Shown here piece by piece: positions 15,052 to 19,146 of a stretch of DNA of 34,515 nt. The position numbers and the translations under genes are program-made. Positions within the stretch are counted from its first letter, which is position 1; each line of letters begins with the position of its first letter. The notes under the pieces are model-generated. The model was not told the origin of the DNA. It did not search any database and saw only the letters and a list, made by a program, of their open reading frames with translations. Origin of the DNA: Nitrospira sp. (GTDB taxonomy: Bacteria; Nitrospirota; Nitrospiria; Nitrospirales; Nitrospiraceae); the NCBI GenBank assembly GCA_029881435.1, contig JAOUMR010000027.1:1-34515 (forward strand), given 5' to 3'.

Positions 15052-15525
15052 ATGACCAAAGAGACAGAAGATCAGTACCAAGTCGTGGCCACGAATCGGA
15101 AGGCCTATCACGACTACTTTATCGAGGAAAAGTTCGAGGCGGGGATGGTCCTGAAAGGCACCGAGGTGAAATCGCTGCGTGATCGGCGCGTGAACTTACA
15201 AGACAGTTACGCCAGCGTCAAAGAAGGGGAGGTCTTTCTTCATCACTGCCACATCAGTCCGTATAGTCATGGCAATCTCATGAACCATGATCCGATCAGG
15301 ACCCGTAAACTGCTTCTGCATCGCAAGGAGATCAACAAGCTTCTTGGCAAAACGCAGCAGAAAGGTCTCACGCTCGTTCCTCTCCGGATCTACTTCTCAG
15401 CGCGAGGTCGGGCCAAGGTCGAACTGGGGTTGGCAAAAGGAAAGAAGCAACACGATCGTCGCGCGTCGATCAAGGCTCGAGAGGCGGGACGAGAGGTGGA
15501 ACGGGCCATGAAAGAGAGAAAATAG
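15052..15525 (+). CDS. smpB: SsrA-binding protein SmpB
   Basis: A 157-residue protein that binds tmRNA and brings it to stalled ribosomes for trans-translation. VVATNRKAYHDYFIEEKFEAG (broken here for length), then GMVLKGTEVKSLRDRRVNLQDSY, SPYSHGN and the RTRKLLLHRKEI segment are classic SmpB signatures. The C-terminal tail AKGKKQHDRRASIKAREAGR is the basic helix that enters the mRNA channel. Length is normal. It diverges from dciA. The tmRNA gene itself was not found in the window. Confidence 0.97.
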   Translation: MTKETEDQYQVVATNRKAYHDYFIEEKFEAGMVLKGTEVKSLRDRRVNLQDSYASVKEGEVFLHHCHISPYSHGNLMNHDPIRTRKLLLHRKEINKLLGKTQQKGLTLVPLRIYFSARGRAKVELGLAKGKKQHDRRASIKAREAGREVERAMKERK

Positions 15526-15657: not shown

Positions 15658-15738
15658 CTACCGACTCGTGACCTGCATCATCGCGTACAACACGCTAAAT
15701 ATGGAGACCAATAAGAACATTTCGATAAAGGAAATCAT
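15658..15738 (-). CDS. Possible 26-residue single-span membrane peptide
   Basis: A short open frame ATG...TAG encodes 26 residues: MISFIEMF, a hydrophobic stretch LLVSIFSVLYAMM and a short polar end QVTSR. It looks like a one-helix membrane microprotein of the kind that modulates larger membrane complexes. A strong GGGGGTGAG ribosome site lies eight bases before the ATG, and phased ATGAA/TTCAT repeats lie 49-87 bp upstream. It is on the same strand as, and 172 bp downstream of, the histidine kinase gene. No homolog could be checked; a chance open frame remains possible. Confidence 0.45.
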   Translation of the reverse strand: MISFIEMFLLVSIFSVLYAMMQVTSR

Positions 15739-15786
15739 AATAGTTGCTCACCCCCTTTCACTTTCCTACATATATACGCCTCGAAT

Positions 15787-15825
15787 ATGAAGCGACCATG
15801 AGGGGATCATGAAGAGTTCTTCATG
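15787..15825 (-). promoter_or_regulatory. Phased TTCAT repeats with a palindrome (candidate response-regulator site)
   Basis: On the minus strand TTCAT, CTCAT and TTCAT begin at 15813, 15802 and 15791, exactly 11 bp apart, so they lie on one DNA face. The first also forms an arm of the perfect inverted repeat CATGAAGA-gt-TCTTCATG at 15808-15825. OmpR-type regulators bind direct repeats spaced 10-11 bp, and an OmpR-type regulator gene is nearby. A TATATA sequence follows on the minus strand before the small membrane peptide gene. The link to that regulator is inferred. Confidence 0.5.
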
Positions 15826-15910: not shown

Positions 15911-17347
15911 CTACGCAGGAATCCTGTGCTGCGTGAACGCTGGTAAACGCAGGGTGAAGACGGAGCCTTTATTGACCTCGCTCGTGACGGAAATGCTTCC
16001 GCCGTGGGCTTCCATGATTTCCTTTACAATGGGGAGTCCGAGCCCCGTCCCGGCAGTATCCTTCGCACGGGCCCAATCGGTTCGATAGAATCGCTCGAAC
16101 AGGTGAGGAATATGTTCCGGTTCGATCCCATGACCTGTGTCCTCGACCGCTACCGCGACCTCATGATCGACCGTCTGCAATCGAACCGTGACGGAACCGC
16201 CGGCTGGTGTGTACTGCAGGGCATTATCAAGAAGATTGATGAGCGCTTGTTTGAGCCATTGCGCGTCGCCGAGTACAGGGGGAACCGGCTGAGACTCGAA
16301 CCTCAACGCGATCTGATGGTCATCGGCCAGAAGTGTCAGCTCTTCCACGATTTCTTGTATGAGCGGCTCCAGCGCGAGTGGCATGAGATTGACCGGAGGC
16401 TTGCTGCTGGTGAATTTTGCGAGGGTCAATAGGGGACGGGTTAAGGCAATGAGTCGTTCGACTTGCTGGAGATTATTGAGAAGCACCTCGTGGTATTCTT
16501 CCACCGTCCTTGCTTTCATCAGAGCGACTTCGAGGTTCCCCTGCAGAATGGTCAGCGGTGTCTTCATCTCATGAGCGGCGATTTCGCAAAAGTTCCGTTG
16601 GACTTCACTGCCTCGCTGGAACTGATCCAGCACGGCATTTACGGCCTGAGTGAGTCGGCGAAACTCCTGATAGGGTGAATCCATCGGCAGTCGCTTTCCA
16701 AGGTCGGCTTCCGACATCGTTTCGGCACCAGTGCACAAGGCTTCGATTGGCGCCAGGACTTTCTTGGACAGCCAGTGGCTGCCGACCCACGCAAAAAACA
16801 AAGTCGCTGCGGATCCGAGCGCCAGGAGAAACACAAGCCCATTCAGAGTCTCTTGGTAATGGAGCAAGGACGTTTCGGCCTGCAGAACATACTGCACATG
16901 ACTTTTACTGACGAGGAAGAGAAACAGATGACGTGCTGGTATCCCATCGGGCGCCTTCAGAGTTTCGAATAGGAGGGTCTTGAGGCGAACCTGTTCGAGT
17001 ATGCGCGGCGGGAGCGACTCCCGCCCGCCTGCATGAGGGCTCCTCCATACGAGCGAGCCATCGGTGGAAAAGACCCGAAGGGCGTGAGTGACGTCGGGCA
17101 AGATGTGCTGTTCCGTTGTGCTCTGAGTCAACTCGCTCGTTGGCGGAATGTCCTGCTCACGGTGTTCGAAGAGCTCAGGCTGCCGCTCCACGAACTCTGC
17201 CAATGTTTCTCCCAATACGAGCAGGCGTCCGTCCACAAAGCGTTGAAGCAAAACCTCACTTGCGGCATACACCAGGGCGGAGAACAGGAGCAGTCCGGCC
17301 ATCAAGACAAAGGTGGACCAGCTGATCAAGTTGCGCAAAGATTTCAT
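15911..17347 (-). CDS. Two-component sensor histidine kinase
   Basis: A 478-residue membrane kinase. TM1 is at about 9-30, a periplasmic sensor region spans about 31-167, TM2 about 168-192, then a HAMP linker with APIEALCTGAETM. The H box is AAHEMKTPLTIL with phosphoacceptor His259. The ATPase has the N box NLLDNALQYTP (Asn375), DTGHGIE (403-409) and GTGLGLPI (433-440). The layout resembles CusS/heavy-metal-type sensors, but the signal is not known. It overlaps the response regulator stop by four bases (ATGA) and therefore pairs with it. Confidence 0.93.
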   Translation of the reverse strand: MKSLRNLISWSTFVLMAGLLLFSALVYAASEVLLQRFVDGRLLVLGETLAEFVERQPELFEHREQDIPPTSELTQSTTEQHILPDVTHALRVFSTDGSLVWRSPHAGGRESLPPRILEQVRLKTLLFETLKAPDGIPARHLFLFLVSKSHVQYVLQAETSLLHYQETLNGLVFLLALGSAATLFFAWVGSHWLSKKVLAPIEALCTGAETMSEADLGKRLPMDSPYQEFRRLTQAVNAVLDQFQRGSEVQRNFCEIAAHEMKTPLTILQGNLEVALMKARTVEEYHEVLLNNLQQVERLIALTRPLLTLAKFTSSKPPVNLMPLALEPLIQEIVEELTLLADDHQIALRFESQPVPPVLGDAQWLKQALINLLDNALQYTPAGGSVTVRLQTVDHEVAVAVEDTGHGIEPEHIPHLFERFYRTDWARAKDTAGTGLGLPIVKEIMEAHGGSISVTSEVNKGSVFTLRLPAFTQHRIPA

Positions 17348-18027
17348 GCAGGAGCGTCCGGCTCTTCGAGCATGTACCCGGCACCGCGTACCGTGGCGAT
17401 CAAGGGTGGGGAGAAGTCCCGGTCGATCTTTGCGCGGAGGGCCCGAATATGGGCGTCGACGATATTGGTCATGGGGTCATAGCTGATGTCCCACACATGT
17501 TCAATGATCGCGGTTCGCGTCAGTACACGATTCTTATTCCGTAACAGAAACTCGAGCAGGGCGTATTCTTTGTTCGTCAGAGCGATCTCTTGTCCGGCCC
17601 GCCAGACCCGATGAGAAGCCGGATCCAACCGCAGATCCGCTGCCTGCAATTGGACGATTTGCTGTGTACTGCCTCGACGCAGAAGCGCCCGTATTTGGGC
17701 CAACAGTTCCACGAAGGCGAACGGCTTCGGCAGAAATTGGTCCGCCCCGGTGTCAAAGCCCGAGACCTTATCCTCCACCGTGTTGCGCGCGGTCAAGAGC
17801 AACACCGGCGTCGTGTTCCCTTTGGCTCTGATGCGTCGGCAAAGGGTGAGACCGTCGAGCTTGGGCAGCATGATGTCGAGAATCAGGAGATCGTACGCGT
17901 TGTTCAACGCGAGCTCCAATCCCTCTTCACCGTCGGTTGCCACGTCAACCGCGTAGTGCTCTTCTTTCAAACCTTTTCGGATGAATTGCGCGAGATCCGC
18001 GTCGTCTTCAACCAAGAGAATTCGCAT
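17344..18027 (-). CDS. OmpR-family response regulator
   Basis: A 227-residue regulator with an N-terminal receiver domain and a C-terminal winged helix. The acidic pocket is Glu7, Asp8 and Asp9, the phosphoacceptor is Asp51 in LLILDIMLPKLDG, and Thr79 and Lys101 complete the switch. The effector domain shows LTNKEYALLEFLLRN, VLTRTAIIEHVWD and VDAHIRALRAKID, typical of OmpR/PhoB transcription factors. The partner kinase follows with a four-base overlap. The secreted-protein gene lies 64 bp upstream on the same strand, so all may share one transcript. The phased repeats at 15787-15825 are a candidate target. Confidence 0.95.
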   Translation of the reverse strand: MRILLVEDDADLAQFIRKGLKEEHYAVDVATDGEEGLELALNNAYDLLILDIMLPKLDGLTLCRRIRAKGNTTPVLLLTARNTVEDKVSGFDTGADQFLPKPFAFVELLAQIRALLRRGSTQQIVQLQAADLRLDPASHRVWRAGQEIALTNKEYALLEFLLRNKNRVLTRTAIIEHVWDISYDPMTNIVDAHIRALRAKIDRDFSPPLIATVRGAGYMLEEPDAPA

Positions 18028-18091: not shown

Positions 18092-18709
18092 TCAACAGAG
18101 ACCGCTCCTACAGTCCGTGACGACAAGGTTTGTCGCTTTCTCTCCTGCGTCCAAGTCCAGGGTAGCCCAGGCAATTCCACTCTGACGCTCGTCCTGGTGT
18201 GCCCCGCTGCCTCCCTCGAGAAGGCTGACTACATAATAGCGTCCGGCGGGAATTTTCGTGAACCAAAAGTGACCAGTTGGGTTTGCCCGTGTTATGCGGA
18301 GATAGGGAGCAAGGCGTTTGTCCGTCAAAATGTGGGACAGGGTGTCCCGAAGGCAATCAACAGGCGAAACTGGAGCAGCGGGGCTATCGGGAGACGGTGT
18401 GTCGCTTGTTGATGTGCAGCCACTCACTCGCACGTTTCGCTCGAACCAGTGGCGCGTGTAATGAACCCTGGGAATCAGATAGACCGGGATACCCGCCTGT
18501 GTGATGGCCTTGCCGGAGGGTGAACTGAGGAACACTTGGCCGGTTGCCGTTCCTCGCCCTTTAGGCTTGTAGGAGAAGAGCTCCTTTTCATTCAGTGGCG
18601 GTGGATTCGCTGGAGGCGGCTCGGCTGCCGGTACCGGCTGATAAGGAACCGTGCTGATCAGCAGCCAACAGGCGAACCACCAACGGAGCTTGGTCTGACG
18701 CCACGTCAT
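18092..18709 (-). CDS. Secreted protein of unknown function
   Basis: A 205-residue protein with a signal peptide: basic start MTWRQTKLR, hydrophobic WWFACWLLISTV, and a likely cut after PVPAA near residue 29. The mature part begins proline-rich, then has a beta-rich segment GTATGQVFLSSPSGKAI...AGIPVYLIPR and, near the end, HFWFTKIPAGRYYVVSLL. That pattern resembles carboxypeptidase-regulatory-like/transthyretin-type folds in exported proteins. Four cysteines remain after cleavage and may form disulfides. It overlaps the upstream FTR-like gene by four bases (ATGA), so both are translated together. The function is unknown. Confidence 0.75.
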   Translation of the reverse strand: MTWRQTKLRWWFACWLLISTVPYQPVPAAEPPPANPPPLNEKELFSYKPKGRGTATGQVFLSSPSGKAITQAGIPVYLIPRVHYTRHWFERNVRVSGCTSTSDTPSPDSPAAPVSPVDCLRDTLSHILTDKRLAPYLRITRANPTGHFWFTKIPAGRYYVVSLLEGGSGAHQDERQSGIAWATLDLDAGEKATNLVVTDCRSGLC

Positions 18710-19146
18710 GTCGGAGAGGTTGACGCCGCGGGGGAGTCGTCCGGAACGGTTGGAGATGAGACGGCCTTGTGTTTGAGTGCGCGGCCTTTGTCCGGTGTCG
18801 GATCCGTGACCACACCATAGACCTCACGACCTTCGTGGCCTTCAGGCAAATATTCCGTGATCGGCATCCCATCTTCGCGAACAAACAGGAGACAGTGACA
18901 GTACTTGTAGATCTGCATTTCGTCGCAGGCGCAGATCCACCGTCGGAGCTTGGCTTCAGCCTGTTTGTCCTTATAGAAATTACACGGACAGAGGGGCTTC
19001 CCTAGTTCATCAATGTGCATCGCCAGCCCGTTGACGACCGCCTCCGTCACGGCCGGGGTGGGATGCATCGCGGTCCCACTTTTCTCTGCAAACCCCTGCA
19101 CGAATTTCCGCATTTTTTCGAGGCTTTCCTGCGTCGGTTCAGCCAT
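18706..19146 (-). CDS. Ferredoxin:thioredoxin-reductase-like catalytic subunit
   Basis: A 146-residue protein with the exact cysteine spacing of the FTR catalytic chain: C53-P-C55, sixteen residues, C72-A-C74, eight residues, C83-H-C85. In that family four cysteines hold a [4Fe-4S] cluster and two form the active disulfide that ferredoxin electrons reduce. I start at the ATG 19144-19146 because a very strong GGAGGAGG precedes it; the frame runs further upstream but without support. The C-terminal 40 residues extend beyond the classical domain. No FTR variable chain is visible. It overlaps the secreted-protein gene by four bases and heads the minus-strand cluster. Confidence 0.85.
   Translation of the reverse strand: MAEPTQESLEKMRKFVQGFAEKSGTAMHPTPAVTEAVVNGLAMHIDELGKPLCPCNFYKDKQAEAKLRRWICACDEMQIYKYCHCLLFVREDGMPITEYLPEGHEGREVYGVVTDPTPDKGRALKHKAVSSPTVPDDSPAASTSPT

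Follow-up and report, generated by a model that had tools for sequence, protein, structure and literature searches.

Few small membrane proteins are known to tune sensor kinases, and most of these come from enterobacteria. Among other small proteins, KdpF is a single-helix protein of approximately 30 residues. The closest described case is MgrB, which belongs to the PhoQ/PhoP system of Escherichia coli. It is described as a membrane-bound, regulon-controlled protein that inhibits its own kinase (PMC2789325), and as having approximately 47 aa, conserved polar residues in its helix and a periplasmic region with two conserved, needed cysteines (PMC8404706). Small single-helix proteins with variable sequence, CydX, CydY and CydZ, are described for cytochrome bd (PMC4325964), and the E. 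coli CusR site is given as AAAATGACAAnnTTGTCATTTT (PMC11195947). Here we compare with these systems a 26-aa one-helix microprotein gene, which lies beside a CusRS/CopRS-like two-component system in a contig of Nitrospira sp. (the window, i.e. the whole analysed stretch of 34,515 nt).

The gene is located on the minus strand (15658..15738, from ATG at 15738 to TAG at 15658), in the 385-bp gap between smpB (15052-15525, plus strand) and the histidine kinase gene (15911-17347, minus strand), and its product is MISFIEMFLLVSIFSVLYAMMQVTSR. The ATG is preceded by the strong Shine-Dalgarno sequence AAAGGGGGTGA (15748..15758, minus strand), and a purine-rich site akin to it is found ahead of nearly all orthologues. 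The peptide contains a single hydrophobic stretch with a best 17-residue Kyte-Doolittle mean of 2.33. Thus, the ATG-to-TAG frame, the strong ribosome site and the hydrophobic helix, which an earlier note on this DNA had listed with the strand unstated, are all present. When the gap was resampled 2000 times with a first-order Markov model, a single resample contained a hydrophobic frame of 24 aa or more preceded by a Shine-Dalgarno sequence.

The search for the peptide in relatives, suggested in the earlier note, revealed matches to MISFIEMFLLVSIFSVLYAMMQVTSR in 43 of the 79 genomes that represent the genus. The other 96 genomes of the family gave no match at E up to 10, as far as the depth of this search allows. 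When 395 genomes of the phylum were searched with a profile of 20 members of the family (SFIE), three genomes outside the genus matched, with E 0.001 to 0.01. The proposed synonymous-rate bias was also found: pN/pS is 0.268 (codon bootstrap 0.16-0.40) for the orthologues (n=39 distinct DNA sequences) and 0.295 for the paralogues (n=17). Stops or frameshifts among relatives had been named as grounds for dismissing the gene. The frame survives, with in-frame stops in 0/39 distinct orthologues and 0/17 paralogues. The other two coding-strand frames of the orthologues have pN/pS of 0.90 and 2.22, with stops in 20/39 and 18/39, respectively. One antisense frame is also stop-free in the orthologues (ratio 0.48); it is broken in 14/17 paralogues. 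Because of this conservation, which is far stronger evidence than the resampling chance, we conclude that the frame 15738..15658 is a real, easily overlooked protein-coding gene under purifying selection. Alternatively, the frame could be open by chance and the upstream operator (see below) alone could have a function, such as driving a small RNA; in favour of this, operator DNA is the most widely recurring part of the locus in our DNA search. However, the selection on codons, the lack of stops in all 56 distinct sequences, the conserved start offset and Shine-Dalgarno sequence and the outcome of the resampling led us to reject this explanation as extremely improbable.

The alignment of the 20 SFIE members shows the invariant residues M1, E6, I13 and Q22 and no cysteine in any of them, and at most three to four residues follow the helix in SFIE peptides. 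With E up to 10, no Pfam family was found for the 20 members and no NCBIfam family for seven peptides, the HMMER filters being weak for 26 aa. A PDB sequence search with the microprotein revealed no relative; its sole match was a de novo designed helix (E 2.3). No published description of this family was found in the openly available literature searched. KdpF was considered and rejected, since there was no Pfam or NCBIfam match (with the same weakness of the HMMER filters at this length) and no kdp genes were seen by eye in the window. In the genome G063 (locus L048), the Shine-Dalgarno sequence and the first codons of the peptide are partially duplicated in tandem ahead of the intact gene.

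The phased-repeat region noticed earlier upstream of the frame is real: after a palindrome, the repeats TTCAT, CTCAT and TTCAT follow at a spacing of exactly 11 bp. Judged by its sequence, this region is a fixed-spacing operator and a predicted response-regulator site (15787..15824, minus strand), with the CusR-box-like palindrome ATGAAGA-AC-TCTTCAT (15824-15809) and two more TCA half-sites at the 11-bp period, followed by the -10-like element GGCGTATATATGT (15768..15780, minus strand). An alignment of 52 sites of the genus has 58 columns, of which 17 are invariant. They correspond to the ATGAAG...TCTTCA palindrome, to TCA and TTCA half-sites in 11-bp steps and to a GNGTA element, and the columns G46, G48, T49 and A50 of the -10-like element are at least 90% conserved. 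The median distance from the operator to the start codon is 86 nt (5-95%, 80-112). Elsewhere in the gap a sigma-70 scan gave one weak match only, and there is no good -35 ahead of the -10-like element, which fits an activator-dependent promoter.

In the source genome the window site is the best-scoring operator (E 4e-16), and two further sites have E values of 2e-6 and 7e-5. The second-best site (L103, C177:340-393, minus strand) is located approximately 380 nt ahead of a contig-cut protein start, MASDRGYDISQWYDSKPVKIGWFAMLAI, which is AmoC-like by eye when compared to the AmoC of L246. No such operator above threshold was found before the AmoC genes of the genomes G033 and G077.

Size and hydrophobicity, and nothing more, would also suit a small toxin-like peptide of the type I kind. 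The strong Shine-Dalgarno sequence, the regulator-type operator and the conserved polar residues E6 and Q22 are unlike a repressed toxin, and the Rfam scan of the window, which detected two tRNAs and nothing else, gave no antitoxin RNA. We consider a toxin very improbable.

The kinase (15911..17347, minus strand) is CusS/CopS-like with HAMP, HisKA and HATPase_c domains, and the gene ahead of it encodes an OmpR-type, CusR/CopR-like response regulator (17344..18027, minus strand; both by Pfam). Further upstream in this row of minus-strand genes are a protein with a signal-like N-terminus (18092..18709), which belongs to no Pfam or NCBIfam family and is kept in L080, and, as the first of the row, a ferredoxin-thioredoxin reductase beta-chain-like protein (18706..19146, the longer frame; PF02943, E 7.7e-23). 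The best NCBIfam models are TIGR01386 for the kinase, with 245 bits under a cut-off of 292.55, and TIGR01387 for the regulator, with 260.9 bits under a cut-off of 279.2. The kinase core is 40% identical to that of CusS (7zp0); the AlphaFold model of the kinase is moderate (mean pLDDT 73.6, pTM 0.39), and the kinase core alone was used. No metal-efflux neighbours were recognised by eye among the frames of the window. The source genome contains an ammonia monooxygenase family gene (L273, C152:280-987; PF02461, E 7.8e-102), which places it with the complete ammonia oxidisers. Since ammonia monooxygenase is a copper enzyme, a copper-type sensor matters in such a genome.

Presence of the operator follows presence of the kinase. 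Kinase homologues were found in 59 of the 79 genus genomes at E 1e-120 or better and in five more when the threshold was relaxed to E 1e-70. All 64 of these genomes harbour the operator (E 0.01 or better) vs 5 of the 15 genomes without the kinase (Fisher 2e-9, uncorrected for relatedness). The five are G006, G029, G036, G043 and G058; the operators are strong in G029, G036 and G058, and the latter two genomes are fragmented or incomplete. In 50 of the 59 genomes with the stricter kinase match, an operator follows the kinase gene on the same strand at a distance of up to 1.6 kb. Among the matches listed for the remaining nine, the distance is 4-11 kb in five genomes; in three, no operator follows the kinase on its contig, and in G030 none is listed, with a weaker operator match in the per-genome tally. 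When all loci are considered, an operator is located no more than 1.5 kb from the kinase in 59 of 63 homologues, whose identity goes down to 41%, vs 0/1260 shuffles. The count of 50/59 is the fairer one, because the set of 63 was partly collected via the operator or the peptide.

The operator is present behind kinases of merely 41-51% identity, where several operators head other small one-helix proteins. In the distant relatives L159, L161 and L166 it precedes a PepSY-like gene (named by eye) followed by the response regulator in one operon, in L199 it lies upstream of regulator and kinase, and in the outgroup matches L191 and L195 it adjoins regulator or kinase. Of all features, the kinase-adjacent operator with a small membrane gene is kept best, and this extends to other genera.

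At some loci (L246, L247, L248) other genes lie between the kinase and the operator-peptide unit. In G033 and G077 the two are separated by an AmoC-type gene (recognised by eye in G077) and a membrane protein of 650-680 aa, and in G007 by a membrane protein and other genes. This large membrane protein of G033, G077 and G007 looks bd-like by eye, and no NCBIfam match was found for it. Such neighbours would suit a microprotein that serves a respiratory or monooxygenase complex as a small accessory subunit, in the manner of CydX in cytochrome bd, and its core LLAxxFGVxxA resembles the CydX sequence by eye. The intervening clusters look like insertions, however, because 50/59 genomes have operator and kinase side by side and no such cluster, and neither the paralogues nor the microprotein in the window have such neighbours, by eye. 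Membership in the CydX family was rejected, as neither the 20 members in Pfam nor the seven peptides in NCBIfam gave a match at E up to 10, with HMMER filters that are weak for 26 aa. Taken together, a subunit role seems quite improbable.

To see what the operators head, 84,980 species genomes were scanned with the operator pattern. The 78 resulting stretches are nearly all labelled Nitrospira or other Nitrospirota, and two are labelled uncultured Nitrosospira. Four stretches are labelled otherwise (L191, L195, L238 and L231), of which L231, carrying a Nitrospira-type peptide, is probably misbinned. Of 81 pattern-found operators with enough downstream sequence (three were dropped), 58 head a one-helix frame of up to 40 aa with a Shine-Dalgarno sequence; of 1620 random positions, 22 do so. 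In the full set of loci, a microprotein follows 105 of 144 distinct operator sites (eight sites with too little sequence were dropped). The 88 distinct peptides fall into at least four families, with 47 in SFIE, 25 in FG..YK, eight in MVAL and seven in FWG, and one other peptide. The remaining operators are followed by larger proteins, among them PepSY-like and Slp-like ones (by eye), by frames of another kind, or by no clear frame (13 sites). The names nucleoside transporter, MarR and DctA-like, given to other proteins, are by-eye readings as well. Many genomes contain additional copies of the peptide gene far from the kinase, and the 19 paralogue stretches examined showed no kinase or regulator match. 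Thus, the microprotein, which the earlier note had presented as a single candidate, is a real gene and very probably a member of a large, genus-wide, operator-linked family.

Some operator-led genes are longer. A second family of 75-79 aa (MANIIxASMVCFPYVMVGLGQAII...) is located right behind the kinase in L028, L242, L251, L200 and L248, ahead of the 26-aa peptide where the latter is present, and in L028 and L200 the kinase is followed by up to three successive operator-led small membrane genes. In L253, L254, L156 and L258 the operator leads proteins of 199-220 aa that share the conserved part AHGNV...VHFNAYQPQNEAKAQYCT, and in the first three of these the N-terminus is a microprotein-like helix. 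In L149-L154 the operator leads a gene for an Slp-like lipoprotein, in most cases with a 5' extension resembling a decayed microprotein (MMxIFLALSPTVVFGVL).

Because the operator tracks the kinase, adjoins it and usually heads one-helix frames, the neighbouring response regulator very probably has the microprotein among its outputs, and we are highly confident that its gene is controlled by the adjacent CusRS/CopRS-like system. The earlier proposal of an output or feedback element of the kinase is thus well supported in its first half, including by the operator that precedes a regulator operon in distant relatives; its second half, the feedback, is plausible but unproven, given the stand-alone paralogues and a covariation signal that does not exceed the controls.

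The following sequence of events can be imagined. The kinase would sense an envelope signal, perhaps a metal, and the phosphorylated regulator would bind both the palindrome and the half-sites phased at 11 bp, recruiting RNA polymerase to the -10-like element, as expected from the known biology of CusR/OmpR-type regulators. The peptide would then enter the membrane as a single helix, its invariant E6 lying close to the outer face and its basic C-terminus on the inner side. In the least certain step, it may touch the transmembrane part of the kinase and tune its activity in an MgrB-on-PhoQ-like negative feedback, a proposal that rests on this very precedent. For the whole chain, an inner-membrane microprotein switched on by the CusRS/CopRS-like system and feeding back on its kinase, we see the chances as even, and by analogy kinase feedback may be the main job of the microprotein, which we hold to be a shade less probable than that. 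Covariation between peptide and kinase peaked at r 0.58 at kinase residues 163-189 (TM2) for 21 non-redundant rows, and an earlier run on a redundant 44-row set had given a partial r of 0.42 at TM2. Since pseudo-peptides from smpB reach 0.605, this test does not discriminate and was not used as evidence.

Several operator targets are not microproteins, and three genomes (G029, G036 and G058) have strong operators with no kinase detected; both observations speak against the proposed chain. Alternatively, the microproteins could be envelope-stress effectors of the regulon that adjust transporters, the membrane state, or respiratory or ammonia-oxidising complexes, with the kinase-adjacent one merely one among several. 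The lone paralogues far from the kinase would suit such a general membrane effector, as would the non-microprotein targets, the rows of up to three small membrane genes behind the kinase and the second-best operator of the source genome with its AmoC-like neighbour. On the other hand, it is the kinase-adjacent pair of operator and small membrane gene that is best kept, even in other genera. We regard the effector role as a serious competitor, though on balance somewhat doubtful. Returning to kinase feedback, an extended version appears rather unlikely at present: Nitrospira and its relatives might run one CusRS-like regulon with dozens of undescribed, rapidly diverging one-helix proteins of 24-37 aa as main products, and unlike families might swap behind the same operator as interchangeable helices acting on the kinase, so that a changing panel of the sensor's own microprotein outputs would tune it.

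These observations are important for several reasons. The conserved operator is a sequence tag by which microprotein genes can be found independently of the peptide sequence, and in Nitrospira-type bacteria one sensor may control an entire set of microproteins that are so far undescribed. Were the feedback reading true, nature would provide many one-helix regulators of differing sequence for a single kinase family, on which helix-helix specificity could be tested directly.

In comparison with the known systems, the microprotein shares similar size and the single helix with KdpF. It is likewise small and single-helix when compared to CydX, CydY and CydZ, which are encoded in cydAB operons, whereas the microprotein has its own regulator-type operator and, in the window, a kinase gene and smpB as neighbours, with no oxidase. 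The two-component system resembles CusRS/CopRS in the closest NCBIfam models for kinase and regulator, in the CusS-like kinase core and in the operator, which shares the ATGA-N8-TCAT geometry with the E. coli CusR palindrome. It differs in that both proteins score under the curated cut-offs, the Nitrospira operator adds phased half-sites, and the main targets are microproteins instead of efflux genes. With its 26 aa, no cysteine and no periplasmic tail, the microprotein was rejected as a homologue of MgrB, and unlike MgrB it is encoded right behind the kinase and has several unlike families at its side. Still, like MgrB it is small, with one predicted inner-membrane helix that carries conserved polar residues, and it very probably belongs to the regulon of a two-component system whose kinase is membrane-bound. 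As to the MgrB trait of control by the regulator of its own kinase, the operator here tracks the kinase and is predicted to be bound by its regulator.
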